Shown here: positions 11,421-36,700 of the stretch, in pieces
Layout: every line of letters starts with the position of its first letter
How positions within the stretch are numbered: position 1 is the stretch's first letter
From: Acrasis kona
Lineage: Eukaryota > Heterolobosea > Eutetramitea > Acrasida > Acrasidae
NCBI GenBank assembly: GCA_026419775.2
Contig: JAOPGA020001383.1
Span: 1-39,592, forward strand
DNA: 39,592 nucleotides
Reading direction: 5' to 3'
The notes under the pieces: generated by a model
Told to the model about the DNA's origin: nothing
The model's input: the letters and a program-made list of their open reading frames with translations, nothing else
Databases searched by the model: none
Position numbers and translations under genes: made by a program

Positions 11421-14400
11421 ATGGAAAAGTTCAATCCCTACGACTTTCAGATAAAAGCAGTACAGGAAGCAGTGGAAAAGAACATTATTTTGGTTGGTGA
11501 TACGGGTACGCATCGCATCTTTATTTTATCTAATTCAAAAAGGATGTGGTAAAACTATGGTATCTGTGATGTTGATAGACCGATTAATAGCCAACAACAA
11601 GTTGCCACAACCTGAAAAATGCAAACTACAAAAAAAGATTTTCTTCATTGTAGACAAGGTACTGCTCGTCGCGCAGCAGGCACAAGTAATAAAGGACAGT
11701 TTGTGTCCAATCCACAACATCACCGTCGGTCAATACACTGGAGGCTACACAAGAGGTGATCTTGGCACTGATCAACAAATCAATGCCACCGTACATGATG
11801 AAGATTACGCATTCATAAGCAAAGCATCATCATGGAAAAGAGAATTGAGCGTTATTGATGTGTTCGTTCTTACAGCTCAAATCTTACTTGATGCCTTGAG
11901 ACATGGATTCATCGACATGAAAAATGATTCCATGCTTCTAATATTCGACGAATGCCATCATGCGACAAAAAATCATCCATTCAATTGCATCATGTTGGAA
12001 CATTATCACGGCATTAAAGACCCTTCATCAAGACCCAAAATCTTTGGAATGACAGCGTAAGTTGACCTCTTTAAATTTCCATCTCACATCGTTAGTTCAC
12101 CATTTAATTTGAAAAATGCAAATCATTCGGAAGCGGATTTGAAGATGTCCATTTTGCGCGAGAGTTTAGATTGTTATGTTCATGCAGCTAATACGACAGT
12201 GAAATCAAAGCCACACACTTGTCTAGAAGCTCTCGAATATAGTCTCCTGTGTGACGATCTTAACAATTACATTCCAGACATTGAAGATGACAAAATGAGA
12301 ATGTTACATGAAAGATTGAAATTGTTAAAAAAAGAATGTGGTGGTGACCGTAATAAAGTTAGGTGTATTGTTTTTGTCCAAAGAATTGTTCATGTCCGTT
12401 ATGTTGCAGAAATTATAAGCAACGACATGCAAGATTTGTCTGATTTTATAAAATGTGAATTTATAACGGGTAGAGCCAGAGAAGGCAAACAAGAGTTTAA
12501 GATGGACCACAAAACTCAAAAAAATATACTTGATCAATTTAGATCGGGTGAAATAAATTTATTGGTGTCTACAAATGTAACCGAGGAGGGCATTGACGTT
12601 CCTTCTTGTAATCTTGTTATTCGTTTTGATTTGTTTAATGATTTGACTTCTTATATCCAATCCAGAGGTAGGGCTCGTTTTAACGACTCACAATATGTCA
12701 TTATGGTGAACAAACTTGACATTAAGGATATGGATTTCTTGCGAGAAGTCAGTGCTAAAGAACAAGTCATGAGAAATAGCTGCAAGTCAGCTTTTGTTCC
12801 TCATTCAAAAAAAGAGCCTTACGAAGGGGATCGCTACACTGTCAAAAAATCAGGTGCTTCTGCGACACCTAACAGTAGTGTTTCTTTATTGTCTAATTAT
12901 TGTTCTACTCTTCCGAGAGATCGTTATTGTAAAGTGTTCAAACCAGAGTACATACTCACTTCCGACAGACCAGAATGCTTCAGTTACAGATTGGTCATGC
13001 CCGTTAATAGTCCTTTGAAGGAGATGCTTGAATATGGACCAGTTAGTAGCAAGAATAGTGCTAAACAGCATGTCTCTTTAATGGCAGTTAAGAGATTGCA
13101 TGAATTGGGTGCATTAGATGATAATCTAATTCCAATAACAAGTGACAAGTCATCTTTGGTACAAGAATTCAAGGCGGTGAAAGTTGAAAAAATATTAAAT
13201 ATGAATAGAACCATTCCAGAAATTCTGCAATGCAATCAGAATCATTCTAATTTTCTAACTGAGCTTGTGCTGGTATACATTTACCGATTTGTTGTTGTTA
13301 ATGGTCCACCTATAAATTTTAGGTTTGGCTTACTTACCACGAAATTACTTCCTGATATTCCATCTCCATTCTGCATTTATGCCCAACCAGGTGAAGTTTC
13401 TCAAGTTTGTCTTGTAAAAGTCAACCGCATCAGAATCAGGATCAGTACAATCATAGACTACCACCGCGAAATCTTCTCAAGACTATATCACACCAACATA
13501 GATGCTCAGTTCGAAAATGAAAGAGATTATGTAATCATTCCTTTAACCGAAAATGGTATGACTGATCATCAAGAGATTCAATTGAATCTACCAAAAATAA
13601 AATTTGATCCGGGCACTGGTTTGAATAAAGTATTGTATTCTGATCATAGTAGATCAATAATTCGTCCAATAAAAATGGACACCACGACACCGTTACAAGA
13701 AAAGTATGAATTTGTTAAAAAATATAAGAGTGAAAGAAAAATCAATAAAATGTGTGGCCCTGAAATTGTTTTAACGCGTTCAGTCACCAAGCACAAAACT
13801 GATTATCTTGTTGATAGATTTGCATCCTTATCTACCGACCAGACTGAGGAAACAGATTATCCTGCACCAGCTGATCTTTTTTATGAATGGGATCGTGCAA
13901 TGTATGAGAATTTGTGTTTAATTCCTTGTTTGATATGGCAACTTGAAAAATATCTTCTCTCAGAGGAGTTGCTAACGAAAATATTAAAAGAAAAAGAAAT
14001 TTCAATAAATTTATTTGACAGGATGAGAGAGGCAACTCTGACTCCTTCTGCTGGTGATATTGTTAATTACGAACGATTAGAATTTGTTGGCGATGCTGTT
14101 TTAAAAGCTGCAGTGTCCACTAGTCTTTATCTTGAATTTCCTCACCAACATGAAGGTTGGTTATCTCAACTAAAATCATACATGGTCAGTAACAAAGTCC
14201 TTGCTAAATCATGTATTGACAATAATCTCGTAAATTACATTACAAGTGAGAGGTATTATTTCAAATCACTTCACCTTCCGCATCTGAAGTGTATTAAACC
14301 AGTTGACCATAACAAAAGCTTGTCTTTAAAGACACAAGCTGATGTAGTGGAGAGCATCACTGGTGCCTACTTTGTAACAAGTGGTTTTGAAAGGTCATTG

Positions 14401-15300
14401 CATTTTCTGCATCAAATCAAACTTCCGAAATTTAGACTCGATCTAATTCTTGAAAATAAAAGACCTCAACCCACTAACACCAAACCAATATCCAAGAATT
14501 TATTCAAAGTAGAGAAATTGATCAAGTACAAATTTAGAAATCATAATTTGCTGGATGAAGCCCTGACTCACGCTTCTTGTGGTCAAAAGCCAAATGCAGC
14601 CAATAAAAAATGTTATCAGAGGTTAGAATTCATTGGTGATGCTGTTCTTGACATCATCATCACCGAGCTTTTGTATACAAAATATTCTTCTTCAAAACCT
14701 GGTAAGTTGACCGACATGCGTATAGCAATGGTCAACAATGGTACGTATGCTTATCTTTCAGTGCGTACTGGTCTTGCTCCTTTTGTCGAATATTACAGCG
14801 AAGAAGTCTATGAAGATATTGATGACTTTGTATGTGAAGTTGAGAGTAACGAATGGAATCCAATAGAAGATGAAGATAAAGCTCCAAAGGTCCTTGGAGA
14901 CATCTTCGAATCCATAGCCGGTGCCGTCTATGTAGATTGTGGTTTTGATCTTGATGTTGTTAAAAAAATATTTTGTCCTTTGTGGAAAAACTTTATGGAT
15001 AAGTACATTTCTCCAACTAAAGTCAGAGTTCACCCTACCAGAAAGATTCTTGAGATGATTGATGAAATATGTCCACATGGCAAATATGACATCTCGGTTG
15101 ATGACCAGCAAATGGACAACGCAGATTACATCTCTAGACTGAAAATACATGAGATAGAAGTATGTAGTGCTGGTGGAGACTCCAAAAAGAAATCAAAGCG
15201 TGAATTGTGCATAAATTTAATAAGAGAACATCCTGGTGAAGATAATTTGAAAAAGTACTTGTCTTCATTTTGTAAGTGTAATTTGATTTGCATCGAATAA
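11421..15300 (+). CDS. Dicer: helicase plus tandem RNase III ribonuclease
   Basis: Three exons: 11421-11505, 11543-12056, 12096-15300 (introns 37 and 39 nt), giving 1267 residues. The first intron splits the Walker A motif GDTGCGKT (residues 26-33) and the second splits motif III (GMTA^SP). Domains: DExD/H helicase with DECH (164-167) and helicase C (VSTNVTEEGIDVPSCNLVIR, QSRGRAR); Dicer dimerisation/dsRNA-binding fold near 455-545; a platform-like segment; RNase IIIa with ERLEFVGDAVL at 859-869 and ADVVES; RNase IIIb with RLEFIGDAVLD at 1042-1052 and GDIFES at 1134-1139; a C-terminal dsRBD-like tail (GGDSKKKSKREL). The acidic catalytic residues are present in both RNase III domains, so it should cut dsRNA into siRNA-size pieces. 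I could not recognise a PAZ domain. Animal, plant and fungal Dicers share this helicase-first layout; many protist Dicers lack the helicase. Confidence 0.95.
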
Positions 15301-15317: not shown

Positions 15318-16180
15318 TTATGCTATCATACACTTCTGAACTTTCGTAAGTGGTTTTTTGTTGTTCAACATTTTTATTAATTTTTCATCAATTAGAATGC
15401 TACATTGTACAACAAACTGGAGGGTTGTATCAATGTTGATGCCATCCTTGGCACTTGTTGATACAAAGTACATACCTTGCTCTTTCGCATACTTTCTGGC
15501 GATATTCTGATTAATGTAATTTTTATAATCCAAATCGCGTTTGCATTCAACAAGAGTTATTGGTTTTTCATAGCGTTTTATGATGTTGAGATAATACTTT
15601 GCCTTTTCAAAGGACTGCTCATCTCTACAATCGTAGCACAAAAGCATGTGATGAGCTGATTGAAATCGTTGTCTTAACAAATTGGCGCTATCTTCAAACA
15701 TTTCGCTATCAGTATCTATCTTTTGTTAGAAACGAGTACAGTGTTGATACCTAAAAAATTAATGCAAACCAGATTTCCAGCACTCCTTATTGTTTTTATG
15801 AATCGGTCTTCAACAGAAGCGGGGTCATAGTTTTTATCATAGAAACCGTGAATGAATCGTGTTGATAAGCAAGTCTTTCCAGAACCTTGGCTCCCCACTA
15901 GGCAAACTCCAACTTCCTTATCAGAAATCTCATTTGTATATTTTCTGCTCCTCTCATAAAGATGCATTTGTTTAAAGCAGAATTTAAAATCGACAACTGC
16001 GTCTTGTTGTAGGGGATACTTCGATTTCCATAATTGCGACCACATCCTGTCATGATTAAAAAAGGCATTATATTTCCAACAGACAAGTGAGAGGGAGACA
16101 AAATCCATAACAGTAATATCACCGATGTACGATAGCAGTATATGCAAAATGTAATCACTTGTGAACAAATCTGAGTTCAT
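15318..16180 (-). CDS. F-box / Ras-like GTPase fusion with CaaX end (short form)
   Basis: Two exons, 16180-15751 and 15715-15318 (35-nt intron), 275 residues. Residues about 8-56 read as an F-box (ILHILLSYIGD...SLVCWKYNAFFNH..MWSQLW), which in known proteins binds Skp1 in SCF ubiquitin ligases. A Ras-superfamily domain follows: G1 GSQGSGKT (96-103), G3 position FLDTDSEMF (D144), G4 position ECKRD (201-204 is CKRD), G5 TSAKDG (near 231). G3 lacks the DxxG glycine and the catalytic glutamine, and G4 lacks the usual Asn of NKxD, so GTP hydrolysis and guanine specificity are doubtful. The last four residues, CMIA, fit a CaaX prenylation box. The gene converges with Dicer (17 bp between stops) and diverges from the 2H phosphoesterase (51 bp between starts). 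The fusion is read directly; SCF membership and prenylation are inferred. Confidence 0.82.
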
Positions 16181-16231
16181 GCTCTTCTCTTTCTAAATTA
16201 TTGTAAAAGTTCAATCAAAAGAACAAAGAAC
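16181..16231. promoter_or_regulatory. 51-bp divergent promoter interval
   Basis: Only 51 bases separate the ATG of the minus-strand F-box GTPase from the ATG of the plus-strand 2H phosphoesterase. Both 5' UTRs and the core promoters must fit here or overlap the coding regions. It is AT-rich with no clear TATAAA. Confidence 0.5.
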
Positions 16232-16813
16232 ATGACAAAGAAGCAAGCAAAGAACACGGACCAGACTAAACTAATCAAGCCGTCAATGCTGTCTGCTGCG
16301 TGCATAGTTCCTCCAAAATCAGTATGGGACCAGATTCAGCGCATACGGTCCGAGCATGATAAGAGCTATAATAGGTGGATGCCACACATAAACCTGTTAT
16401 ACCCATTTGTTCCCCCGAACTGCTTCGAAGACGCAGTAAAATCATTAGAATCAGACCTTACATTTAAACAACTCAGACCATTCAATGTTATAATGCAAAA
16501 CATTCAATACAAGGATGACGCAAAGTACTTGAATGTATTTCCTCAAGAAGTCGAGCAAACTAGTACAACAATAATCAAGGTGCAATCTACACTACAAAAG
16601 TGTTTTCCTCACTGTTCTCATACAGGTGGCAGTATTTTCTCTCCCCATCTTACATTGGGACAATTTGAAAAAGAGGAAATATCATTCCACTCAAGATCCA
16701 TCCAAGAAGAATGGATACCAATTGAATTTCTAGTCACTGAAATACACTTTTTGAGCCGTAAAAGTACTTCTGATCCCTTCCAAATAACAAAGGTTATAAA
16801 ATTACCGTCATGA
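16232..16813 (+). CDS. 2H phosphoesterase (2'-5' RNA ligase-like)
   Basis: Single exon, 193 residues. Two H-x-[T/S/N]-x motifs define the 2H superfamily: H52 in PHINLLYPF and H139 in PHLTLGQF. The second histidine motif is canonical. In the first, Asn stands where Thr or Ser is usual. Known members hydrolyse or form 2'-5' or cyclic phosphodiester bonds in RNA and nucleotides; which substrate applies here cannot be told. There is no signal peptide or membrane segment, so it is probably cytosolic or nuclear. A plausible AATAAA lies at 16882-16887, about 70 nt after the stop. Confidence 0.85.
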   Translation: MTKKQAKNTDQTKLIKPSMLSAACIVPPKSVWDQIQRIRSEHDKSYNRWMPHINLLYPFVPPNCFEDAVKSLESDLTFKQLRPFNVIMQNIQYKDDAKYLNVFPQEVEQTSTTIIKVQSTLQKCFPHCSHTGGSIFSPHLTLGQFEKEEISFHSRSIQEEWIPIEFLVTEIHFLSRKSTSDPFQITKVIKLPS

Positions 16814-16909
16814 TGTTGTTGTTCATTCATTGATTTAACTTTACAAAAGTTGATGATGCAACACGCACATGTCGACAACATAATAAATAAACATAATAAA
16901 TATATTGAA

Positions 16910-19114
16910 TCAAGTTTTTATTTCAATTAAATCTTTTTTAGTCACCACTCCCACTAACTTTCCGCGTTTAGTTACCCAAGCATGACTCATACCCAACATG
17001 CTGAACAAGAAATAAATTTTTGTGAGAGGAGTCAAATAATTAATATAAAAGGGCGCAGGATCAACAAGTAATATTTGACTTCTCTCCTCGTCATCAATCT
17101 TTAAAAACAAGTTTCTATCAAATAAGAAATTCGGTTTCACATTCTCACTCATGGCATCCTCTCCCTTCTCGCTCGCAATTCTCTTATACTCTTCACACAC
17201 AATTTCGACCTGACCTCGACTCACACTACCAATCAAAGTCATATTGGTCGAATCATTTACAACAGGATAAGAAAAATGAGTGGTACTTTTCGTACCTTCA
17301 ACAATACTCTTTAGAGAAGAATCAACAGCGATGTATTGAATATCCTTTCTCATAATATCTTGTGCCGTTTTATTATACGTTTTAGCAGTTGGCTTTATGG
17401 TACTAAGATAAGGTAACCCTCTCAACTTCATGATCGTATCGTAGATGCTTAGATTAAATAGATTACCGACGGCGGTAGCAACTACGGTAGCGATCATGAC
17501 AGGTACCATATAGTTTAGTTGACCAGTAAGCTCAAAGAGAATGACTGCAGTCGATAATGTCCTGGTGCACCCACTAGCTAAACTAGCTGCACCCACTACA
17601 GCATAACCGCCAGGACGCACAGCAGTATCTACAAACAAGTGCACAAACTCTCCCATGAATCTACCTACTCCAGCGCCCACTGCATAGACGGGAGTAAAGA
17701 GACCACAGCTGATCGGAAGCACTACGGTAATAGCAGTCAATAAAAACCGAGCAACAACAAATATAAACAAAGATAAAAGAGGTCTACGAGTCGGCAAAGG
17801 ACTCGTATCGAATAATATATTAGTAACTTCGCCATTCGATTGCTTTAAGAGTGGATCCATCGGAAAAGCCAAACAAGAAGTGACCACCGCCACCAAAGCC
17901 ACAATCAAGTACCTCGACTCCCTTAGTTTCGGTCTCGAGCGCACCAACACGATCTGATTCACCACTCGATTAAATAAAGCACCCAATGCACCACAAATAA
18001 CGCCCAATAGAATGAACAACAAGTATTCGTAGGGGTCGTAAGGTAGCGGTGGGAATTTGGTGGTGATTGGATTGTTTAAAAGGTAAAACAATAAACTTCC
18101 GAACAATGTGGTAAAGATGGATCTCCAAAGATTACCGACGGGGTAGTACGTCGCCGTGACTTCGATGCTGAAGAGCACTCCTCCGAAAGGTGCTCCGAAT
18201 GTGGCGGCCATGCCTGCTGCACAAGCGGCTGCCAACATGTTGTTTCTCATGAAATCGCTCCTCTGTATGGAATTAAAGATGGGAAGTCTCATGACCTGAT
18301 AAGCGACGCATGAGGCAATGTGCACGAGCGGTCCCTCTTTTCCAACGGATAGACCTAATCATGGGTGAGATGATTATATAAATGTACTAACCTGCTGCAT
18401 AGGCTGCTACGAGTCCTAATGCTTTGGCAATACCGCAACGGAATCCTAAAAATCTATTCATGATGACGCCACTTAGGATGCTCTTCATTTCTGGTATACC
18501 GCTCCCCACTATGTTCCGGTGAGTTTTAATCAGGAATAATGTACTTACCGCTATGTGGTGATATTAAATGTACACACGACGCTGAGAGTAGGGCAAACGT
18601 GGTACTGTAAATGATGAATAATAGATAGTTGGAAGCAAAAAATGGAGTCAAGCTACTGAATTTATCTCTTGCTATTCAAGTTATTGCATGGTGATGAATT
18701 ATCTACTCACCTCTACTTAAATTAATAATAAAGTAGTCGATTCCAATTGAAATCGCAGCAGTTATTGTTCCTAATAAGGCTAGAAAAACTATACTGCTTA
18801 AAGTTATATTTTGAGTGATGCGCCACAGTAATTTATAATTATTTAAAAGGAACACCCCAAACTTTGTTTTTCGTAACTCTGTTCGTAAGCGCCTCCCTAT
18901 TGTGTTTTTTCTTCGTATCCTTGGCGTTGGTGCCCCGGGATCAATTCTAAAAATGAGAATGATGAGTAAGCGGAAGAACTAACGTTGTTGTTTGATAATA
19001 GTTCTCATCCTCTATATGGAACTCTTCATTACTTGTGCCCATATAATCAGCGCTCTCGTATTCGCTCATCTTCCGCCGCTCATCCTTGTATGTGACGTCC
19101 AAGGTGACGGACAT
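16910..19114 (-). CDS. CLC chloride channel with C-terminal CBS pair
   Basis: Five exons: 19114-18984, 18946-18711, 18671-18549, 18508-18392, 18354-16910 (introns 37, 39, 40, 37 nt), 683 residues. Selectivity motifs are intact: GSGIPE (165-170), GKEGP (207-211, with gating glutamate E209) and GLFTP (near 420). At the proton-glutamate position the sequence is LFSIEVTATYY, with Val following the Glu, as in animal ClC-1/2-type channels. Exchangers usually have Glu-Glu there. This predicts a chloride channel rather than a Cl-/H+ antiporter (family knowledge plus inference). Two CBS domains follow the membrane part (TAQDIMRKDIQYIAV...; LTPLTKIYFLFSMLGMSHAWV...GVVTKKDL). An AATAAA on the coding strand (16917-16922) ends just before the stop. 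Confidence 0.95.
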
Positions 19115-19442
19115 TGTTCTAATTTACTAGCATTGTAATTATTGTTGATTACAATAGTTCTTTTTTTTTAATAATGGTAAGGTGATCAGGCGATCAAAAT
19201 TATAAGAAAAGGTATGTTATAACCTGAGTAGGTGATGGACTTTTTTCCATCATAATGGACAATAGTGCACGCCTTTGTGATTTGGTGATATTTATAGTAT
19301 GTATAGCGAGCTGTGTACAGCTTCCTACTCCAGACGAAGTCAATAATAATTAACAACAACTAAATCTATAATTACGCTTTAAAAGTGCCCAACAAGTTTG
19401 ATATAAAATGAAACTAATTAGATATTATACAATAATATATTA
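19115..19442. other. Intergenic, upstream of the CLC gene
   Basis: These 328 AT-rich bases lie between the CLC start and the relic Arf stop. They include a T8-9 run near 19160 and several TATA-like strings. No gene or structured RNA was recognised. Confidence 0.5.
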
Positions 19443-19973
19443 TTACATGTTTGAACAGACCCAGTTTAATCCCTCAAAATGACCATTCCCACTGGCGCAA
19501 CACAAGGTTGAATGTACTTTTGTTGTTTGATTTGAGCTAGTTTAAGTTTATTTGCTAAACTAGCCGCTTGTACGGCACCAGGTAAATCCTGTTTGTTAGC
19601 ATAAACAAGTAGCATAGCATTTCTCAATCTATCATCCGACATGACGTGATGTAGTTCTTTTCTGGCTTCCACGGTGCGCTCAAAGTCACATGAGTCGACA
19701 ACGAAAATGACTGAATTGACATTGTCGTAGTAATATCTCCATAGTGATCTAATCTTATCTTGTCCCCCTATATTCCACACGACATATTGATGTTTTTATA
19801 TTGTATAGTCTCAATGTTAAATCCAATAGTAGGGATGGTGGTCACTGTTTCATCCAACTTCAATTTAAATAGCGCTGTTGTTTTCCCCGAAGCATCAAGC
19901 CCCACCATCACAAAGCGAGCATTTTTTCAGTAAGTAAGAGTCTGCCGAATATTGATGTGATTGCGTTTCCCAT
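19443..19973 (-). pseudogene. Arf-family small GTPase with three one-base losses
   Basis: Start 19973 (MGNAITSIFGRL, an Arf-like N-terminus with Gly2). Homology then runs to the stop at 19445-19443 but changes frame three times. Pieces in order: the N-terminus; then [17 protein letters not shown] with [11 protein letters not shown]; then [41 protein letters not shown] and YIQPCVAP; then FEGLNWVCSNM. Breaks lie at 19922-19927 (a run of six T on plus), about 19785-19787, and about 19488-19491. Each behaves as one missing base, so 531 nt covers what would be 177 residues. All Arf motifs (P-loop [15 protein letters not shown]) are otherwise intact, so decay is recent, or the assembly has errors here. 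There is no clear AATAAA after the stop. Confidence 0.8.
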
Positions 19974-20170
19974 TGTTTTTTTGATTTCACCGAGTGACAG
20001 AAATATTTTATATACAACATTCTTGGAACGATGACAAAACACCTTCTATTTCAAATTGTAAGCATTGTAATCTCAGATTTTTCCAATTTAGAGGCTTTTG
20101 ATATGATTATTTTTCAAGTTGAGTTGATTTACATATTTGGTGTTTTTTATTTGTAGAGGTTTATATTTAG

Positions 20171-20190
20171 ATCAGTCGACTGATATAAAA
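20171..20190 (+). promoter_or_regulatory. 14-bp perfect palindrome overlapping a TATA box
   Basis: ATCAGTCGACTGAT at 20171-20184 is its own reverse complement. Its last base is the first of TATAAAA (20184-20190). The start codon of the CsbD-like gene lies 44 bases past the TATA element. The position suits a dimeric regulator site at the core promoter (inference). Confidence 0.5.
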
Positions 20191-20233
20191 AGAATGATTG
20201 TATACTCACGTTACGACATAAAAAAAACACAAC

Positions 20234-20644
20234 ATGGAAGTCAGCACTGGAGATAAGATTTTAGGAAAAGTTAAGGAGGGACTCGGAAAGATTACTGGCG
20301 ACAAAGATTTGAAGGAAGAGGGAAAGGCAGTCCACAAAACAGAGAAGGACTTGGAGAAGGTTGAAAAACAACAAGAGAAAGTTGCTAAACAAAGCCAAGA
20401 GGTTTATGAACATGCCTCCAAGGGAGGAGTTAGCGATCCATCTAACATTACAGTCGGTGAGAAGCTCACTGGTGCAATCAAACAAGGCGTTGGAGCTTTG
20501 ATTGGTGATAAGAATATGGAAAAGGAAGGAAAGGCAGTAGGCAAAGCAGAGGAGGCTTATGAGAAACTTGAAAAGAACAGCGATAAACTAGCAGACAAGC
20601 AAGGAGACCTAGCCAAACACAGTGCTCAAGCCAAATTAAATTAA
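20234..20644 (+). CDS. CsbD-like stress protein, two repeats
   Basis: Single exon, 136 residues, very hydrophilic and Lys/Glu-rich. Two CsbD-like units: GDKILGKVKEGLGKITGDKD with LKEEGKA, and GEKLTGAIKQGVGALIGDKN with MEKEGKA. Each is followed by a charged helical segment. CsbD family proteins are small general-stress proteins of bacteria also found in fungi and protists; their biochemistry is poorly known. No signal peptide. Poly(A) signal AATAAA at 20654-20659, ten bases after the stop. The upstream TATA and palindrome suggest tight, perhaps stress-linked, control (inference). Confidence 0.85.
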   Translation: MEVSTGDKILGKVKEGLGKITGDKDLKEEGKAVHKTEKDLEKVEKQQEKVAKQSQEVYEHASKGGVSDPSNITVGEKLTGAIKQGVGALIGDKNMEKEGKAVGKAEEAYEKLEKNSDKLADKQGDLAKHSAQAKLN

Positions 20645-21001
20645 ATTATGTAGAATAAATGTATTAACATTGGAAACAAAACGCGTAATCTATCTATTAA
20701 CGACGCCATAACAAACATCTTCAACTAGGCAAATCTGCCTAAAGTGCACGTATACCTTCTGCTTCAAATTACTCCCCTTAAGCAGGATAATCCTATAAAT
20801 CTAATTACAGGGGCTGTGAAGTTAATTCATTTCTGGAATCAAAGGTCAAGAACTGTTTTCGGCTCCATTTGCTCTCCTCTTATAGCTTTTTGCAAAGCAT
20901 GGCCTTGGATTTGGCCACACAAGCAGTTTATTTGTCGGTAATGTAATTCCATCATGTCCTTCTGATGATGTATGATGAAGATCGTTGTAATCTAAACTAA
21001 G
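20645..21001. other. Intergenic, with CsbD 3' end and a small hairpin
   Basis: 357 bases. It holds the CsbD poly(A) signal (20654-20659) and a short hairpin at 20726-20741 (stem TAGGCA/TGCCTA, loop AATC). Short open frames near 20744-20941 on the plus strand show no recognisable domain and lack an ATG; I do not call them. Confidence 0.5.
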
Positions 21002-22784
21002 ATGTCAAACGTCGGCGAGCTGTACCAGGACCATCTCATTAACTCTCAGCTTAAGAGAACATATGATGGATCCGAGATTCTTATACATATATTTCAGTTT
21101 CTACCTCCTCATGACATACTAAGAATGTCGCTCGTAAACAGTCTATGGAACGAACAAGCAAGTAGTAATTTTTTGTGGAAGAACATGACTCAGAGAGCTA
21201 TTAAGGTACTTATAATACAACTATTTATTCACAATTTTAGATGAGATTTAACTTTGATGGTTCTGATGTTGAAGAGGATTTGACTTCAAAAGTATATCAA
21301 AACCAGGTTATGGATTGGCGAAAGCTTTACTTCGCAATAGTCGGTTCAAGGTGGAGGTGGCGCAGGGGTATCAGAAACTCAACGGACAGACATGACCACC
21401 TGTTCAAAGTGATGATACTCGGAGATAAAAAAGTTGGTAAGAGCACCTTGCTGTAAGTTAAATAAGAAAGTATTATTGAATAATCACAATAGTCTGCGAA
21501 TGGTCAAGGAAGATATTAAAAAAGATGTAATCAGCGAACAAATTAGCAAGTACGAAATGTCTCACAAAACTTGTACAGTAGTAGATGTACTTCCTCCCCA
21601 TTCTGCCGTCAAACTACAAATATACGACTCAAACATTATTGACATGGCCCAATACGTCAAGACTTGTCGCAAATATTCATGCGTGTGTCACGCTGTAGTC
21701 ATTGTATACAATGTCGCTCAAAAGCGCACATTTTTCAATGCCATCAACAAGTGGCTGAACATGGTAAGAAATCAGAACTTGTCTTGTAACGTCTTCCTGG
21801 TAGCCAACAAGAGTGACTTTAAAGAGATGAACCATCAAGTCAACACCACCGAGGCCGAAGCCATCGCTCAAAGCAAAGGTTTATAATTTTTTACAAGTTA
21901 GCGCCATCAAAGCATCAGGAACAGAAGATCTCGTAGCCGCCATCACTAACGTCATACATCGACGAGTCGTGCAAAATGAAGATTACGAAACGAGATGGCC
22001 AGACATACTTGCCGCCAAACATTCCCTTCACATTCGATTCTTTTTCACATTGATGCAGGTCCCCAAGAAGAACGCCATTCAAAATGACGAACACGCCGAA
22101 TACACCGAAAGTGCCATCAGCGCCCCAAGTACGGAAACAAATGACAAGAACGTAGGAAGTTATGATGAAGAAGAAGTCACCGCCATTATTGATGACGATG
22201 CAGATGAAACAGAAAACGATTACAACGACGGAGAATTTTATGATGTAGAAGACCCAGAAGTGAATGAATTTGTTTCATTAACAATGTTCAGAAAACAGAA
22301 ACCATCCGATAAGGATTACTTTAGTTCGTTGGTGATTGGCGGAACCAACTCTCCGACCAGTCCCCATAAAGGTCCACGAATTGTAAGAAGGTTGAGAACA
22401 GGAAGCTTATCCCATCCAAGCACCGATCAAGACGAATTCAGTCTGGCCGAAACCGAATCACATCAACCTACGATTCATTTGGCTTCTGTGCAGCGCGCCG
22501 GTAAACGTCAAACGAAAAAGTATACGAACGATGTGTTGTGGTTGAGCGAAAATCCTGATGCGTCGACGGAGGATAATTTGAATTCGTCGCGTGCCAGCAC
22601 TACAATGACGGATACTACTCCTCACCATGCTGAAGTAAAATCTGACGAACTTGATGGAACGGGTTTGACTGATGCAATTATTATCGAGGCCATGAATAAA
22701 GAAAGCGAGGTTGTTGCGAGTAACGTTGAGAATAATACTCCGAAGAATTTGAAACACAACGGCAAGCAATGCCGGGTCATGTAA
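21002..22784 (+). CDS. F-box / Ras-like GTPase fusion with acidic tail and CaaX end (long form)
   Basis: Exons 21002-21205, 21241-21452 and 21493-22784 (introns 35 and 40 nt), with one frame break at about 21880; roughly 568 residues. Residues about 22-60 form an F-box (SEILIHIFQFLPPHDILRMS, then LVNSLWNE...LWKNM). The GTPase domain has G1 GDKKVGKS (129-136), a degenerate G3 (QIYDSNIIDM, no DxxG glycine or Gln), G4 NKSD (244-247) and G5 VSAIKASGTEDL. A tail of about 270 residues follows, acidic then Ser/Thr-rich, ending in QCRVM, a possible CaaX box. Break: after AIAQSKG the frame stops at TAA, but the frame one base later reads YNFLQVSAIKASG, just as a Ras domain should. One extra T in GGTTTA explains it. 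A 19-nt intron (21879-21897) is the alternative. It is a paralogue of the fusion at 15318-16180. Confidence 0.78.
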
Positions 22785-24751: not shown

Positions 24752-27700
24752 ATGCTTCAGAAGGACGATGCCAGGATAAAGGCTATTTTGAACCTGGTAG
24801 CTTGTGTCTTTCCTAAAGATATTGCTCAGAATTGTGCTTCACAATTAAGCGCTAGTCCAGAGACTGAGAAGTTTATTGAGGATAGCAACTGCACCATTCT
24901 GGAATTTTGTATTGTCGATAAGAAACTAGTTATATCGAATACAATTTCATTTCCTCCAAATTGCACCCATGAGTACCATATTATCAAATCAAAAACAAGT
25001 GGAGCGCTAGAGGAATCCGATTTTACAAGTGGGAATTGTATCCAACATGGATCATTAAAGCACAGTTCACCCAGTGATAATCTGTTGAATCAGCTACACA
25101 ATGTATATGGTCCTCTACTGTTGGCCAACAAGAACTACTCTGGAGACTTTAATCCACTTTTACAAAACCTTCTCACAGAACTCGAATCTGGACTTGAGTC
25201 GTTCGTTCACAAACAGAACACATCCAAAAAGATCTCGGAAGAGTTTTTCTTTTTAACTCCCCAAGAGGAATTACAATACTGGACGGAAGCGAGCGACACA
25301 AACGACTATGCTTCAGAAATTGATAACACGTTCAGGAACTACAAGTTATATGAAAAGTTTTCCCGTCTAGAACAAATGAAGTTAGAGGAGATCACTCAGG
25401 GAACCGAGAATATCGTTTCCGACATTCAATCAGCACTAGAGATAGTTTGGGACCTGGAGGTTTCTTCTGGAAAGAAGTACCCCCAATCAAGAATGGAGCA
25501 TTTGCTCTCGGTCGTTAGTAGTTCCTTTGGAAGATTGATCCAGTTAAAATTAGGACAGCTTAACTTTTGGTCCGAAGACTTTCCCACTGTAAAGAAATCA
25601 CTCGAGCAAGCATTAGAGATATGTTACGATTGGAGGCACTCTGTACAGACACTTATGTTTTCATTCACTCAAAACATGGATCACAAATGGAAAGGAGAAC
25701 CACATAGTGATTTATTATTGGATCAACTTTCACAACGAATGGAGCAGATTTTGAGCATTAGATCAAGTCACGAACAAATCATACAAAACTTGACTGATCA
25801 AGAGTTGGCTGACGTTAATGTCAAAAAATTATTCTTACCCTTTGCGGACATTGTAGCCCTGCACACTTCCACCTATACTGAGAAGTTATGGAACATGGCA
25901 GTCCAACAATATGAAGCAAGTTTAGCACCACTCGAGCGCAGAATTTCAGATAAACTCCGTGCAAGATTATCACAAATATCCGATCAGCCACAACTACTAG
26001 TCATTGAATTCCAACGCAATAAGGAAATCATCAAGAAACCAAACGTAAAGAAGGACTTATCGCAAGAGAGAAGTATCTTTTTGGGACATTTAAGATCATA
26101 TGTAAAAACGTTACGAAATGAATTCGAGAGCATCAGTTACAACGACAAGAGCACTCCCACTCAAGTAGAGGTTGGAAAGATTATGACTTTAATCATCAAC
26201 AAGATCATGTCCACCAAACAAATACAAGACAAGTTAGCATCCATCAGCTCAACAGCAAACACATTCTTGGACGATCTCCCCAACGCAGACGTCCTCACCA
26301 AAGAATGTCAACAATTAGAAAATGACCTCGAAGAATTTTCCACACTCCAATTCGAAAAATGGAAACGTCAAGTCAAAGAAAGCATCGACAAGAACAATTT
26401 ATCGGCCGATCTCAAAGGAAACATGATTAAGATGGACGAAGGAAAGAGTTTGATGGTCGTTAATTACAACGAACGATTGGTCAGCCTAATTAGGGAATCT
26501 CGTCAGTTGACCATTCTTGGATTCCGAATTCCGGACGAAACACAACAATTATGTAACGAAGCATTAGAGTTCCACGCACAAGCAATGACTTTGAAACAAA
26601 TTGCGAATTTTTACAATAACGTTCACACGCAAATCATCAAATCACAATCTGCAATGCTGGTCCAATCCGCCTCCGAATTCGAAAGAGTCATCAAGACATT
26701 CGACAGCACCATCAAATGGAACAAGAAACAAGGAGATAAGTACATTGATAGCTTAAAAAAAGCAGCAGATAAATTCACATCAGAAAATCGCAAATTACGA
26801 AAATATCACCTGATGATCAGCGAACGAGTTTCTCAGTTATTCAATATTGATTTGTTACGCGATCGCGAAAAATGGTTAGATCAAATTTCCACCATCATTC
26901 GCATCTTTTCCACATTGTCTCAGAGTTACCAAAACATGGAGAGTTGGCGCATACATTGGGATTATCAAATTTATAGAGCATTAGAACATCAGTACCAATT
27001 AGGATTAGAAAATTTGAACGAAAATTTACCAGAGATCAAAGCAGATGTGATCTTCAAAAACAAACAAATTCAGTTCAATCCATCGTTCGAAAGGATTAGA
27101 GAGATTTATTTCGAGAGGATGAGCGAATTCATTTCGTTCCCGGAACATTTCGAAGGAGTTCACTCGACCACTAGTGATGGAATGTGTCCGAGTGGAAGAA
27201 CTGCGAACAAGAGTAGCATCTTTAGACAAATGATTTATAGAAACGAATCTAGTTTGTTGAGTGTTTACAAAAAAGCAGGTCAACTGTTCGCTAGATTACA
27301 ACAAGCTCAAAAAAGATTCGTAAACTACGTCGTATTGGGCACCGTCGATTCGCTATCTCAATTAGTGGAAGAACAGTTACAAGATACGAACCAATGGGAA
27401 GCCAATTTCAAAATGGTGAAGGAAAAGGGAAAGGAAGTGGAAAGAATCGAAAATCAGATCAAGTACAGTTGCATCACATTGTCGACTCAACCCATCAAGG
27501 CATCCATAGATGACCAATTACAAAAATTAGGTGATGTATTGGTTAGATCTCTTCGGTTATCTGCTCAAAGTCATTTGAACAAAATAGAAGAGTTTACAAA
27601 AAAAGCACAGTCAGAGTTGACCACCGAACCACAAACCATGGAAGACATTGGAAAGTCACAACAATTCGTTCGAGAGCTATCCATTGATAAAAAAAACGTT

Positions 27701-30700
27701 TATACCGAGTTCGACAAATTCGAATCCAAAAATAAACTTTTGCGGAGCGTGTCGGGAAATTACATTGATGTCACGAGTTACAAAGATAAATGGAATGACT
27801 TTGAAGATACGCTCATGGCACACGAACAATTCTTACAAGAAAGAACGGTCAACCTAAGAAAAGACGTCGAGGGCAAATTAACAATTTTCCGCAACGACGT
27901 TACAAAGTTTTCGGTCACTTGGCATGCCGTCAAACCCAAAAACAATCAATTCGAAGGTCACACAAAATCAAAAGAGAACATTACAAAAATAAAAGAAAAG
28001 CGATTGGAGTGCGAAGAATTGAAAGCTAGAGCCGATCAGATACAAAGAGAATGTGAATACTTTGGCGTCAAGAAACAAAACATGGATGATCTCGACGAAG
28101 TTGATGCTGACATTTCGAAATTCGAATCCATTTGGAAGGTATACGAAGATTACGTGGGCGACTTGGATAAGTATTACAAAGAGGAATGGATCGTCTTCAA
28201 AAAGCGTTATTTCGAATTTGAAGATTTCATTCAAAAATGGTCAACCCAACTCAAATCAGAAGATTCGAATTCGAGCGTCGTATTATACATTCACAACCAA
28301 ATCGACACCTTCAACACATTTAAGGACAATTTGAAATTCATTCTTGGTGATTCGTGGACCACTGATCACTGGATTCAATTATTCAGAATGATTGGAATCG
28401 ATCACAACGCCATCCAATACGATAAATTGTTATTCGGTCACTTGTTGGATAGCAGCGATAACATCATAAGAGAGAAACAATCCATCATGGACCTCAATAA
28501 CAGGGCAAGAGAAGAGGAACAAATCAGAAGCGAATTACACGAAATCAGAACATGGGACGCCAAAACAAACTTTGCGTTATTCGAATACACTTCCAATCCA
28601 AAGAAGAAATTAAGTCTCATTAAGGAATGGAAGGATATCTTATCAAAGGTTGGTGATTTCATATCAGTCATTCAAACCTTAAAAGACCATCACTATGCTT
28701 CATTATTCGCTGCAGAAATTGCATCGTGGGAAGATAAATTGGGTAAATTAGATTTGTACCTCACTGGTTTGAATCAAATTCAAAGAAAGTGGTTATATTT
28801 GGAACCAATTTTTAGTAAAGGTTCGTTACCGAGCGAAACGGCTCGCTTCAATCGAATCGATAAGGACTTTATCGAAATTATGCAAAATGTGGAACATGAC
28901 CCTAGGGTAACCAAGTTGGTCAACCAAAACGGACTCAATAAAGAAAAACTCAAAATGTTACAAAGTGGTTTGGATTTGTGCCAAAAGGCTCTAAACGACT
29001 TTTTGGAAGAAAAGAGAATGGCATTTCCGAGGTTTTACTTTATTGGTGATGACGACTTGTTAGAGATTTTGGGACAAGCTCAAAATCCAAATATCATTCA
29101 ATCTCATCTGAAGAAGTTATTCGCTGGTATTCATTCGGTGAAATTCAACGAGTCTCAAACGACAATTGTTGCCATTTGTAGCGCAGAGGGAGAACAAGTA
29201 CAATTGAAGAATGGAGTAAATGTCACCGATAAGGTGGAAAGTTGGTTAAGTATTCTAGACGCCGAAGTAAAGAGCACATTACAGCGTCTCTTGTACGAAT
29301 GCGACCAATCAAAAGAATTTAGTTTGGAATCATATCCAAGTCAAATTCTATGTTTATCGGCTTATATAACCTTCTCTAGAAAAGCTTTACATGGCATCTG
29401 TTCCAATTCTCTTCATAAAGTACACGAAGAGATGAAACAACAATTAAATGAATACGCATCCATTAATTACGGTTCTGATTTGGTTCTGGAATTAAAAATA
29501 AAGAGCTTGATGATGGATTTGATTCATAACATAGAAGTAGTGGAGAATCTAATCGATAAAAACATTACTTCGCCCGATCATTACGAATGGGCAAAGCAAT
29601 TCAAGTACCAATTGGGAGGTAAGGACTACGAAGGAGAATATCCATCCTGTTACGTACAAATGTGCAACACTGAATTTTATTATTCTTTTGAATATCAAGG
29701 AAATGTTCAAAAGTTGGTTCATACGCCCTTGACCGATAAATGTTACTTGACGTTAACTCAAGGTATGCATTTAGGATACGGAGGTAATCCATATGGACCA
29801 GCAGGTACTGGTAAAACTGAATCCGTAAAGGCACTCGGTCACTTATTCGGTCGTCAAGTTTTAGTTTTTAATTGTGACGAAGGAATTGATTTTAAGAGCA
29901 TGGGTCGTATATTCATGGGACTCGTCAAGTGTGGAGCATGGGGTTGCTTTGATGAGTTTAATCGTTTGAAGGAGGACCAGTTATCAGCGGTGAGTCAACA
30001 AATTCAAATCATTCAAGCGGCAATAAAGGAAAAGAAATTGGAAGAGATTGATTTGTTGGGAAAGAAAGTCAAAGTGAATATGGATGCTGGTATTTTCGTA
30101 ACGTTGAATCCAGCAGGAAAGGGTTACGGAGGTCGTTCTAAATTACCAGATAACTTGAAACAATTATTTAGGGCAGTGGCGATGAGCGTTCCTGACATTG
30201 AACTCATTTCTGAAGTCATGTTGTACTCTGAAGGGTTCGAACACGCAAAGTACTTGGGTAAGAAATTAGTTTCGGTATTCATGCTTTGTAAACAACTCAT
30301 GAGTCCCCAACAACACTACGATTGGGGTTTGAGAGCCCTCAAAGCGGTACTAAGAGTCGGTGGTGGTCAAATCCAACAAATCAAGAGATCTGGTTCTAAA
30401 AACGTGAGCAGAGAAAAGGAATCACAAATGATCATAAAGGCATTGCGAGTCAATACTCTATCGAAATTAACTTATGACGATACGGAGTTATTCCATGGAA
30501 TCATCAACGATGTATTCCCGAACATGTCCACTCCAGATTTAACCTACGCTGATTTGGAATCAGCAATACGACAAGTCCTGGAGGAACAAAATCTAATTTA
30601 CATTGAATCACAAGTAAAGAAGATTTTACAATTTTACGAAGCTGCCAAACAACGTATGGGTGTAGTATTGGTCGGTCCATCTGGTAGCGGAAAGAGCACG

Positions 30701-33700
30701 GTATGGAACGTTTTGTTAGAGGCTGAAAAGAAATTGGGACATGTGATTAAAACATATGTAGTGAATCCCAAAGCTATGCCTCGTCAACAATTACTGGGAC
30801 ATATGGACATGGACACTAGAGAATGGACCGATGGTATCATCACATCTAATGCACGTTCTGTATTTAAAGAACCTCTCACCACTCATTCATGGATCATTTG
30901 TGATGGAGATATCGATCCGGAGTGGGTAGAGAGTTTGAATTCGGTACTCGACGATAATCGGTTGTTGACTATGCCTAGCGGAGAACGCATTCAATTCAGC
31001 AACAATGTGAATTTCATTTTCGAAACTCATTCGTTGAGATATGCATCCCCAGCAACTGTTTCTCGCATGGGTATGATCTTCTTGTCACAAGAGGATGTCG
31101 ATACGGAGAGCATGATTGCATCATGGATCAAGGAACATCCAGAGGAACATCAAGAGGTGATCAAACAACTCATCGATACTTACTTTTATCAAGCAATCGA
31201 TATACTGATGAGATATCACGAAGATTTTGTAATGGACATCACAAAAACAGGTATTGTAAAGTGCGGACTATCTCATTGCTATCACGTATCGAACAGAGGC
31301 GAGCTCGTTTGTGCGTTGATTAGGGGCTTAGGTAGTTTATTAAACGTAGAGGCATGTAACACTTACGCACTCGATATTTTCTTAATGATGGGAGAAGAAC
31401 CAGTGGATAGACGTTCGCCACTCGATTGTTATTACGAACCGAGTCAAGATTCATTCGTGCCGTATACATTCGATGCTAATGTTGATTTATCGATCGAAAC
31501 GCTAAAGAAGAATCCAATGATTAAAACCATTGATGTACAACGCATCAAAAACATATTGTTACCGTGGTTAGATCAATGCGAACCTTTTATATTGGTGGGT
31601 CCAGAGGGTTGTGGAAAGGACATGATCCTTCGTCATTTATTCGAAGAGCACTTCTCAAATACTCAAATCGAAGTGATTCATTGTAACGCGCAGACGAGTG
31701 CAATGAACGTTGTTCAAAAATTGAATCAATCTTGTGGCGTGTTTACAACGAATCATGGAAAGGTGATGAGACCTAATAGTGGCGAACGGTTGATTATTTA
31801 CCTAAAGGACATTAATTTACCAAAACCAGATGAGTACGGTACTACTCAACTGATTAGCTTTTTACAACAATTGATCACTCATAATGGATTCTATGATAAG
31901 GATCTAGAGTGGATCATGTTGGAGAGGATACAAATCGTATGTAGCATGAATCCATCTACATCAGTCGGTAGATATCCATTAACTTCCCGCTTCACATCTA
32001 CGGTCAGAATAGCTAGTATTTCTTATCCTAGCAAAGCTCAGCTATTAAGCGTCTACAACGAAATTGTAAGAGCTGCTTTAAATTCCAATCCAAAAATAAC
32101 AGCGCATCCCTTCTGGAGTCAACCAGCTAACATTACAACGTTGACAGAAGCCATGATCGAGCTATACGAGCGAATCAGAAACAAATTCACGCTAGATGAC
32201 CACCCGCACTACTTATTCACTCCACGTGATTTAACCAGATGGACGCTAGGAATACTCAACTACAATTTCAGCGGCGGAGGAAAGAAGGCCAATGAGCTAA
32301 TAGATATTTGGCTGTACGAATCCAGAAGGTTATTCAGGGACCGTATCGTCGGTGACTCCTCTCTAGCGACCTATAACTCTATCGAAAATAGCGTGATTGA
32401 TAAATACTTTAGTAACTTTGAATACAAGAACATGTTGGGTGAGGTATTGTTTGGAATTCATCCTAGCAAACCAGCGCTCAATCCACACAAGATCCCCACT
32501 TATACCAACAAGATTATTGCGCCACAAAGTCAAAAATACATTCGCGAGCATCGTAATTTGGATTTGTACATGATACAGGAACAAAGCATTTATATAGCTA
32601 ATTTAGAAAGAGTGCTATTACAGCCCGGCAGTAGTTTATTATTGATCGGTAAACCAGGCATCTGTCGCAAAAACGCATTAGCTCTAGCTTGCTTTAATGC
32701 CAAAATACAATTATATACGCCAAAGATGACCATGGGATACGACCTCAAACAATTCAAAGCTGATTTACGAGTTGTATTAGCTACCGCTGGTTTACAAAAC
32801 GAATCCATTTGCTTATTGATCGAAGATTATCAAATTGTGAATTCGACCTTTTTGGAATACATTAATAGCTTGTTAAGCTCTGGAGAAGTACCTGGATTGT
32901 ATTTACCAGAAGAAATCGACCAGATGGTCATGCCCATTAGAGACGAAGCTAGAGATGCTTACATGACGCCATTTGCTTACTTTACGTGGCGCATTCGACG
33001 CAATTTACGTATCGCGCTCATCATGGATCCAGCTAATCCATTATTCAGCGTTAGGTGTCAATCCAATCCAGCTATTTTCACTCAATGTACGATCCTATGG
33101 AAGGAATCATGGTCCAGCGAAGGCATCAATGCCATTCCAAAACTAATCATTGGCGATTCCATCATGAAAGGGTTATCAATGAACGAACACGATTTGACAA
33201 AATATCTAGTTGCCATCCACAACTCCATTCCTGGGTCCACACCCATGTTGTTCATTCGTTTGTTACGTACATTTGATTCCATTTATCAACAAGTCAAATC
33301 AAAGAGAAGCGAACAACAAAATCACTTGTTGAAGGGTTTAAATAAATTGAACGAAGCTGCTTCTAACGTAGATACGCTAAGCAAGAATGCACAAGTCAAA
33401 CAAAAAGAGCTGGTCGAAGTAAAGAAGGAAAAGGATCAAAGCATGACCGATATCGGAAAGAACATGAAATTATCATATGCCGAAAGTGCGAAGATTAAAA
33501 AAATAAAAGAACAAATCACGAAGGAAGACGAGGCATTGAAGGTTAAATCAGAAATGATTGATTCGAAATTAGGAGGTATCCAACCAATACTCGAAGCTGC
33601 TAAAAAGGCAGTAGAAGGTCTCGACGCAAAATTCTTGACCGAAATTCGATCGCTAAACGTCCCACCAGATGCCATCAGAGATGTATTGGAGGGAGTGATG

Positions 33701-36700
33701 AGATTGATGGGCCAAACTGATGTTTCGTGGAAAGGAATCAAAGCGTTCCTGGGCGTTCGTGGTGTAAAGGACAGCATCGTTAATTTCGACGCTCGTTCGA
33801 TTCCCGCTTCGGTTGTTTCCAAAGTAAACGACTACATCACAAAAGAAAAACCAGAGGCCTTCCAAGACGAATACATTAAAAAGAAATCATCAGCGGCACT
33901 TCCATTAGCAAAATGGGTCAAAGCAAACGTACAATATGCAACTGTTATTGTACAGGTCGAACCATTAGAGAAGGAGAAGAAGGAAGCAGAGGAAGCAAAA
34001 GCAAATTCTACAAAATTACTTAATCAATTAGAATCCAAAATGACTCAATTAAATAAAAGAGTGGATGCTTTGAAGAGTGACTATGAGAGAAAAACAAGCG
34101 AGTCGGTCTTGTTGGAAGCAGAAGTAAAGAAACAAGAAGATACGTTAGTAGCTGCAGAGAAATTATTAGGTGCACTAGGAGGCGAAAGAGAGAGATGGGA
34201 CAAACAAGTAAAAGAAGAAGTAGAGGCTTTAAAGTCGCTTCCCTATTACGCTCTCTTGGCCAGTTCTTTCATTACCTATTTGACCAAATTCGACGAAAAT
34301 CAACGCAGCTCTTATATCAAGCAATGGAGCTCCATTTTAAATTTAAAAGAAGAATTCGACTTGACCAAGTTCATGAGTACCGAAAGCGAATTGTTAACGT
34401 TCAAAAAAGAAGGTTTACCCGGCGATAAACTATCCATGCAAAATGCAATTTCCATTTTGAATTGTACTGGATTTACTTTGATTGTAGATCCTTCGAAACA
34501 AGCCACAGAGTGGTTAACGGCTCATTTGATGGGTGGTGCCATCGAACAAACGAATCCTCAAGAACCAAGATTTACAAACACTTTGGAATTAGCTGTAAAG
34601 TTTGGACGTACGTTGATCGTCAATGAAGTGGATCGAATCGATCCAGTGCTATATCCTCTGTTAAGGAACGAAATAAGCATCACTGGAAGCGTTAAAAATG
34701 TTTTGATAGGAGACAAAGTCGTTCCTTATAGCGAAAACTTCAAATTATATCTCATCACTCGTAATCCCAATGTAGTATTAGCACCCGATGCCGAACCATT
34801 GGTCACCGAAGTTAATTTCACGGTGACTCGTTCTGGACTAGAAGGACAGTTACTAGGAGAGACTTTACAGCACGAAAATCCACAATTAGAGACTAAAAAG
34901 AGTGAGCTATTAAAAAAGGAAGAATCAGATAAAATACAAGTGGCCAACCTCGAAAAAACACTTTTGGAAGAGTTGGCAAATTCTCAGGGAAATCTACTAG
35001 AGAATACGGCGTTGATTACGAAACTAAACGAAATCAAAAGAAAAGCAAAACAATTCGAAACAAGTCTTGCCGAAAGTGCAACCATTAAATTGGAACTAGA
35101 TGCTTCTAGAAATGCATATCGACCATTGGCTCAAAGCGGCAGTAACTTGTTCTTTTTGTTAAGTGATTTGAAGAGAGTTAGCAACATGTATCAATTCAGC
35201 TTGAATATCTTTTTGAAATTATTCAAACAAGCGTTAACCACCACCAAACACTCTGATCAGTCCAGTAACGAACTAAGCGTCAGGATAGAAACGCTCAAGG
35301 AGGAATTACAACGAATCGTATACGAATACACGAGCAGATCGTTATTCAAACAAGATCGTTTGTTATTCGCTCTTCACATGTGTTTAGGAAAACAAGATTT
35401 GGTATCAAAAGCAGAGTGGGATTTCTTGATGGGCGTTTACAAAAAATCGAATTCTTCTTCTGGTGCTATCGACTCGAAACTAAGCAAGTGGATACCTGCA
35501 GATAAACAATCTAATGTAGTCAACTTGATGCAAATCTTACCTACCTTTGCTCAACAATTAAATTTTGAGAACGAAGCAATGTGGAGCAAATGGATCAAGA
35601 ATGGAGATTCTACCAATATACCAGCATCTTCTAGAGGAATGACTCATTTACAACAAATGGTGATCATCAAGTGTTTGAAACCTGATCAGCTCTATAACGC
35701 ATTGGGTTCGTTCGCTTGTAATGAATTACGATTGGATTCCATATCGCCACCTACTCTCAAATTGGAAACGATTTACAAACAAGATTCTACGTGGGACGAA
35801 CCCATATTGATCATCAGCACGCCTGGTAGCGATCCCACTCAAGAAATTCAAGATTTGGCCTCTGCAGAGGGTGTCATCCTTCATCAAGTGGCCATGGGTC
35901 AAGGTCAGACCGATCGAGCGGTCGAATTGCTCGAAAAATGTGTAATCAATGGAGAGTGGCTCCTGATGAAGAATTTGCATCTGGTCGTATATTGGTTACC
36001 CATTTTAGAGAAGAAATTATCGACGATACTCACGCCAAATGAAACAGATAAGGAATATGTGAAATTTAGGTTATGGCTCACTACTGAACCACACGACATG
36101 TTCCCCGTCATTTTGTTACAAAGAAGTTTGAAAATCACGTTAGAAGCTCCTCCGGGAATCAAACAAAACTTATTGCGTACGTTTGATTCGTGGGACTCTG
36201 AGTTTTTGAAGGGCACCGACGATAATGCTTATAATCACGTTCGTTCTCAGCTCATGTTCATATTGGCTTGGTTCCATGCGGTCGTACAAGAGCGTAGAAC
36301 TTATCAACCACAAGGATGGACCAAATTCTATGAATTCTCCACTTCTGATTTGAGATCAGCTGGAGATGTCATTAGCGCTGCTATTTTAGCTAATAAACCA
36401 GATTGGCCGACCATCTACGGTTTGTTAGAAAATGCAATTTATGGAGGTAGAGTCGATAATGAATATGATGGTAGAATACTTCGTTCCTATTTACATAAAT
36501 TCTTTAACGATAAAATACTCAACCGAACCGAATTTTTGGCGCGAAGTTTGAATGCACCTGCTGGAAATGATTCCTATAGCGATCACTTGAAATTAGTTCA
36601 TTCCATCGCACCCACCGATTCTCCCGAATTGTTTTATTTACCACCAAATGCAGATCGCGTGGTGCAAACATCTCGTGCGAACAAGGTGCTCGATTCGCTG

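Follow-up and report, generated by a model that had tools for sequence, protein, structure and literature searches.

This study examined a stretch of 39,592 nucleotides (nt) from the heterolobosean amoeba Acrasis kona (the whole of which is called the window here), which is contig C713 of an assembly of 37.35 Mb in 1021 contigs, and two genes within it, gene A (15318-16180, minus strand) and gene B (21002-22784, plus strand), each of which encodes an F-box followed by a Ras-fold domain. A sequence-only reading of the window had described both genes as F-box/Ras fusions with a CaaX end and had proposed a family of such proteins. The proposed family was found, since 23 distinct F-box/small-GTPase fusions were modelled in the A. 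kona genome, with a Cys at position −4 as a general feature (20 of 23). The description of the two genes stood in its outline and failed in two respects, namely that gene B is not one frame after splicing and that the F-box of gene A falls below the Pfam cut-off. The family is real and fairly surprising: a small GTPase is joined to a cullin adaptor, a kind of combination that is already known.

Removal of the intron of gene A in the splice model yielded a protein of 275 aa ending in CMIA, which is identical to the public predicted protein AKO1_008902 (P0001). The F-box and the GTPase thus belong to one gene, as had been claimed; separate F-box and GTPase genes were refuted by this single public protein and by the intron inside the GTPase part, which nine fusions, gene A included, carry in the aspartate codon of the G3 motif. 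A Pfam check, suggested with the sequence-only reading, was positive for Ras in both genes (91.8 bits in A, with a cut-off of 21.6, and 65.2 bits in exons 1-3 of B) and for the F-box in exons 1-3 of gene B (F-box-like, 46.3 bits, with a cut-off of 24.3); the weaker F-box of gene A is weighed below. The Ras fold and a P-loop of the form GxxxxGK[ST] are present in both proteins (GSQGSGKT in A and GDKKVGKS in B), and a G3 motif DxxG with the catalytic Gln is absent from both, DxxGQ being replaced by DTDSE in A and DSNII in B. On these motifs and on the C-terminal residues CMIA and CRVM, the sequence-only reading was accurate; a further change, G4 of gene A being ECKRD in place of NKxD, was absent from it. 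By their fold, A and B are atypical members of the Ras superfamily and probably not canonical switches. Neither protein had a Pfam match to FYVE or BTB at E ≤ 1. Two more copies of part of gene A (window 15458-15758), about 98% identical, were observed at L031 (C797, 1490-2589) and L032 (C233). In both, the sequence is interrupted at one and the same point (window 15758/15759) by a repeat that the genome search matched 23 times, and these interrupted copies are perhaps the other allele.

In gene B, splicing of two introns, 21206-21240 (35 nt) and 21453-21492 (40 nt), gave a frame that stops at ...AQSKGL*, and the final strand (with SAI) and helix, the acidic tail and CRVM all lie in the next frame. 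A Rab-profile-guided alignment, in which introns of ≥18 nt were allowed, placed the frame break at 21,883 and suggested that the second intron may end at 21534 instead of 21492. The break could represent an assembly indel, gene decay or a 19-nt intron; a GT..AG intron of this length mends the frame but deletes the beta-6 strand. The available text of the A. kona genome paper gives a size range of 9-95 bp for predicted introns, so that apparent introns of very small size do occur in the models of that paper (PMC11589745). In a protein search of the assembly, gene B was found at this locus only, and because there is no second copy, error and decay are not separable. An Arf-type GTPase gene at 19470-19990 (minus strand) is split over three reading frames by two breaks resembling that of gene B, which together point to indel errors or decay in this contig.

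Table 1. Positions of the parts of genes A and B in the window.
Feature	Position	Strand	Basis
Gene A, exon 1: F-box, linker helix, P-loop, switch I	15751-16180	−	Splice model, identical to P0001
Gene A, F-box, about residues 6-55	16016-16165	−	Family profiles; helices 9-19, 24-35 and 44-54 in the structure model
Gene A, P-loop GSQGSGKT, intact	15872-15895	−	Alignment
Gene A, intron of 35 nt splitting the G3 aspartate codon	15716-15750	−	Splice model; position common to eight paralogous fusions
Gene A, exon 2: remaining Ras fold; G3 DTDSE, G4 ECKRD, G5 STSAK	15318-15715	−	Splice model, alignment
Gene A, CaaX box CMIA; 4 Lys/Arg among the preceding ten residues	15321-15332	−	Splice model, tail count
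Gene B, exon 1 (F-box at 21071-21196)	21002-21205	+	Splice model, Pfam
Gene B, exon 2, up to P-loop GDKKVGKS (21421-21444)	21241-21452	+	Splice model, Pfam
Gene B, exon 3: GTPase core; G3 DSNII (21626-21640), G4 NKSD; alternative 5' end 21535	21493-21883	+	Splice model, Pfam; Rab-profile alignment
Gene B, frame break	21883-21884	+	Profile-guided alignment; stop after AQSKGL
Gene B, remainder in second frame: G5 SAI, last helix, acidic tail (no Pfam match at E ≤ 1)	21888-22784	+	Alignment, Pfam
Gene B, CaaX-like end CRVM, Arg at a1	22770-22781	+	Sequence

The fusions were found as adjacent Ras and F-box matches on the same strand, with more obtained by protein searches with A and with the first exon of C422; such matches occurred at many places in the genome, which refuted the idea that the family is confined to the pair in the window. 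The number of 23 is a lower bound, as only the best-scoring search candidates were evaluated. Six copies were excluded from it: C72 (a truncated near-copy of C279), C894 (a near-copy of C303), C952 (a copy of C230), C673 (a copy of C569), and the interrupted copies of gene A at C797 and C233:67142. C87, C896 and C230 were counted, although they have no Cys at −4. Public proteins identical to the model exist for A, C422 and C85, the C229 model departs from its public counterpart only by two residues ahead of the start, and the remaining models come from this analysis only. In the public model of C586 (P0125, named rasC), an in-frame stretch of 39 nt is retained as coding at G3, where the paralogues have an intron. 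Two further candidates were rejected: the F-box match of C880 sits in a separate open reading frame (ORF) that looked by eye like leucine-rich repeats (LRR), and no F-box was found in C751. An F-box match upstream at C422, itself a counted fusion, belongs to another ORF. In one member, C849, the F-box, Rac-type GTPase and CaaX are preceded at the N-terminus by a 2-oxoglutarate/Fe(II) oxygenase domain (PF03171, 37 bits); its sister C230 looks similar by sequence, with no CaaX.

The fusions that share the intron in G3 show how the motif varies: DTAGP in C422, C561 and C586, DSAGP in C229, DTSGN in C504, DTSGL in C463, DTTCK in C279, DMAES in C303 and DTDSE in gene A, with a G4 of VECKRD invariant in the six aligned members of this group. 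In this graded series, gene A stands at the far end and is no special case. Over the whole family, the position of Gln61 is not Gln in 20/23 (5 Pro, 3 Ser and others), Gln being kept in C849, C632 and C995, and the glycine of DxxG is retained in 14/23 and lost in A, B and others; the motif DTAAG of C156 can be read in more than one way, and no clear G3 is seen in C569 or C808.

For comparison, the controls were 60 loci at the head of the list of non-fusion Ras loci of A. kona, a choice that biases them to canonical sequences; they include the near-identical L088 and L089, L053 with stops, and a few doubtful automatic gene models. Gln was kept in 45/60 of these (15/60 without it) and in 36 of the 47 that entered the tree set, and a Fisher test of non-Gln in 20/23 fusions against 11/47 controls gave p = 4.7e-7, with kinship ignored and with two gaps scored as non-Gln among the 11. 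When fusions scoring within the control range were counted by eye, one of seven had Gln. The fusions from other sources and their comparison proteins were drawn from the best 120 of 543 matches of a search with C85, to which the following statements on them are limited. Pro or Ser replaces Gln61 in each of the 11 F-box/Rac fusions from other sources that could be read; Gln is kept in 100/101 proteins with no F-box or BTB label (labels from Pfam, so that weak F-boxes could hide) and in three of the four BTB-labelled proteins, P0027 having Pro. Loss of Gln61 is known to impair GTP hydrolysis in Ras proteins. Normal hydrolysis is likely to have been lost in most of the fusions; the sequence-only reading had considered this for A and B from their G3.

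The C-terminal Cys provides a second common feature. It is present at −4 in 20/23 fusions and absent in C230, C896 and C87, against a background of 2.9% Cys among family residues, and is thus more frequent than expected by chance; not every one of the 20 ends is a textbook CaaX (CRVM, CKIM, CLYT). Fusions from other sources with a complete end have it in 10/11, the lone exception being P0118, in which the F-box follows the GTPase at the end of the protein.

Columns of the G3 motif were omitted from the alignment behind the GTPase tree, in which 84/86 rows were kept. The A-type fusions and C156 formed one group in the Ras part (Shimodaira–Hasegawa-like approximate likelihood-ratio test, SH-aLRT, 89, not starred as well supported), C85 grouped with fusions of Naegleria and Willaertia within the Rho part (99, starred), and C849 and C230 were also of Rho type. 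Gene B fell among the Rabs on a long branch, its placement being unsure. The F-box label required 10 changes on the best tree, and the starred branches alone force two changes for the non-fusion label and three for the Acrasis fusions. These forced changes make more than one fusion event likely.

The search of related genomes for the fusion, another check suggested with the sequence-only reading, was successful, as F-box/Rac fusions were found in Naegleria lovaniensis (P0012), Willaertia magna (P0009) and others. These are like A and B in combining an F-box with a GTPase and in the Cys at −4, and some have Kelch repeats. They differ in being of Rho type with P-loop and DTAG intact, DTAGP or DTAGS replacing DTAGQ, whereas A is of Ras type, B is perhaps of Rab type, and both have lost the DxxG glycine. 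Kelch/F-box/Rac proteins were observed as P0019, P0045, P0094 and P0118, one of them with reversed domain order. A protein search with the A-type alignment returned mostly ordinary Ras proteins (7984 candidates scored, 120 listed); among the matches listed, the four rows covering 96-100% of the query were Acrasis proteins, and other rows covered ≤75%. As ordinary Ras proteins swamped this search, the absence of the A-type outside Acrasis is not established.

The architecture, the family, the Cys at −4 and the altered motifs are established at the level of the predicted proteins. On this basis, we give about even odds to the interpretation that A and B are divergent members of the fusion set that act as membrane-anchored adaptors of the Skp1–Cul1–F-box (SCF) ubiquitin ligase, with a non-cycling G domain as docking module. 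The N-terminal F-box would recruit Skp1-Cul1, and prenylation of the CaaX Cys would place the complex on a membrane, where the G domain may serve as a docking surface, locked in one state or insensitive to nucleotide, that recruits substrates or positions the ligase. Possible clients would be proteins that recognize the related normal GTPases, and turnover might proceed by synthesis and self-ubiquitination and not by guanine nucleotide exchange factors (GEFs) and GTPase-activating proteins (GAPs). Such an action would be akin to a Cul1 counterpart of RhoBTB-Cul3, although the proteins are no RhoBTB. The A. kona genome has a Skp1 gene (101 bits), a weaker Skp1 match (57.6 bits), several loci for cullins and three with matches to PF00432, the prenyltransferase family. 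A broader proposal, which we regard as speculative and rather unlikely, is that SCF adaptors joined small GTPases repeatedly (of Ras, Rho and perhaps Rab type), each time with loss of the hydrolytic Gln, so that the G domain would act as a permanently GTP-like membrane bait capturing effectors, GAPs and other partners of normal relatives for ubiquitination by Skp1-Cul1; this would amount to more than 20 genes for decoy-GTPase degraders in a social amoeba.

Several points weigh against the reading as SCF adaptors. The Pfam check was negative for the F-box of gene A, which scored 15.2 bits against the cut-off of 24.3, and this region has no Leu-Pro, the usual start motif of an F-box; folded alone, it gave a model of low confidence (predicted local distance difference test, pLDDT, 64) with no structural match in the PDB at E ≤ 0.001. 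In the family, the F-boxes of 9/23 passed a Pfam cut-off in genome scans (including C561, with a whole-protein score of 23.7 just under 24.3), the other 14/23 resting on family profiles, and with filters off a pooled F-box hidden Markov model (HMM) gave E values of 0.21 to 0.94 in control frames (best 5.1 bits). A kinship-corrected test of F-box against Gln61 had two independent starred pairs and was powerless (median p 0.5), and with two such well-supported pairs, the link between F-box and Gln61 loss is at most suggestive. Gene B is possibly a broken gene, gene A is possibly dispensable because its two copies of about 98% identity are interrupted by a repeat, and Skp1-Cul1 recruitment, prenylation and the fixed docking surface are steps that we infer.

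For the F-box of gene A, support came from family profiles. Trained on the N-terminal regions (F-box plus linker) of eight paralogues, A excluded, one HMM scored gene A at 83.1 bits (best of 2000 shuffles, 12.4), and an HMM of 11 F-box regions from Rac-type fusions scored it at 21.0 bits (best shuffle, 9.1); hhalign matched the paralogue N-terminal profile to the Rac-type-fusion F-box profile with a probability of 96.8% and E = 2.3e-10. A chance F-box in gene A was ruled out by these scores. The structure model of the full protein has three helices in the F-box region, and the rows shown from its structure search cover the Ras part only. The Rac-type-fusion HMM also recovered 17/18 non-Rho-type fusion loci, three F-box HMMs with default filters found 0/60 of the other Ras-family loci at E ≤ 1, and the pooled HMM gave 34 to 90 bits on fusion loci, which are partly its training set. 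The predicted F-box of gene A is thereby supported by family profiles and hhalign despite its Pfam score.

Cis turnover and gene decay are the main rivals. In the former, the F-box would act in cis and make the fused GTPase short-lived through self-ubiquitination, the GTPase part being the effector. According to the available parts of the respective papers, TbFRP, a FYVE/F-box/Ras-like GTPase of Euglenozoa, is cleaved rapidly, and its authors suggest that the F-box may couple to its proteolysis (PMC3593210), and the ligase of RhoBTB proteins also takes these proteins as substrates (PMC4931677). Against this, G3 is changed in most members, which is odd for an effector under turnover control; we consider this explanation unlikely. 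Decay would make A and B drifting duplicates with little function, their altered switch II arising from relaxed constraint. The frame break of gene B, the interrupted copies of gene A, an in-frame stop in C896 and the long branches of several members fit drift. Against it, the Cys at −4 is kept in 20/23, which would not be expected of drift, and gene A is an intact gene of 275 codons that has kept its intron phase, its CaaX and its Ras fold. Rac-type fusions from other sources, otherwise well conserved, lack Gln61 too. Decay of the family is an improbable account.

The sequence-only reading itself had proposed nucleotide-gated receptors, in which the G domain would still take up GTP or GDP and the bound nucleotide would govern substrate capture or Skp1 binding. 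The P-loop, G5 and, in B, NKxD are retained, and other members keep DTAG (C422, C561, C586, C85 and C849) or Gln61 (C849, C632 and C995). In Ras proteins, GTP is sensed through the DxxG glycine, which carries the rearrangement of switch II that GTP drives; this glycine is missing from A and B, and Gln61 is gone in 20/23. Nothing on a GEF, a GAP or binding turned up, and no search was aimed at any of them. The proposed capture set by nucleotide state found no computed support, and with the glycine lost, a locked or pseudo-GTPase domain is likelier in A and B. Gating fits these two genes least well and is possible for DTAG members such as C849; as a general explanation, it appears quite unlikely.

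Other genes of the window comprise a Dicer-like gene at 11494-15300 (plus strand) with helicase, Dicer dimerisation and RNase III domains, near which a 2'-5' RNA ligase-type protein is encoded at 16232-16813; CsbD-like stress-protein repeats, of a family known mainly from bacteria, at 20234-20644 (plus strand); and a dynein heavy chain at 24752-37651 (plus strand), a single open frame of 4299 codons that matches the cytoplasmic dynein-2 AAA model.

The claim that no system of this kind had been described was mistaken, as TbFRP (PMC3593210), Arf/F-box fusions (PMC8358228) and RhoBTB (PMC4931677) are in print; the comparisons that follow are based on the accessible portions of these and the other cited papers. 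Among the literature matches listed, titles and abstract openings held no description of a CaaX-ended F-box/Ras family, which is weak evidence of absence. The term "F-box" does not occur in the main text of the A. kona genome paper (PMC11589745). The references behind the small-GTPase supplement of the N. fowleri genome paper include reviews on F-box and BTB, so that Naegleria fusions may be described in this supplement (PMC8296547).

TbFRP resembles A and B in that a single protein carries an F-box ahead of a Ras-superfamily domain, and in its membrane placement; it differs in its FYVE domain, in having no CaaX (it ends in VLLD), in a G domain nearest to Rab18/Ypt6 and in being a single gene, of which its authors report no orthologue in Naegleria gruberi (PMC3593210). 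The Arf-family fusions with F-box or BTB are likewise recurrent combinations of a small GTPase and a ubiquitin-ligase domain and differ in their GTPase family (PMC8358228). FBXL2 is a geranylgeranylated F-box protein with an LRR substrate domain and no GTPase (PMC7729025).

RhoBTB, in which a Rho domain is joined to a Cul3 adaptor, shares with A and B a small GTPase with a cullin-RING adaptor module and an atypical G domain, for which that source gives no known GEF or GAP (PMC4931677). Its BTB domain, for Cul3, is C-terminal to the G domain, whereas the F-box of A and B is N-terminal and Skp1/Cul1 would be expected; among RhoBTBs, CaaX occurs only in RhoBTB3, which uses ATP owing to changes in G4 and G5 (PMC4931677), a precedent that calls for caution over the altered G4 of gene A. 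If the reading as SCF adaptors is true, cells would link SCF directly to the surfaces of small GTPases, in the way that RhoBTB links Cul3, alongside loss of hydrolysis, and these natural fusions would offer a compact set for asking whether a locked G domain selects degradation substrates at the membrane.

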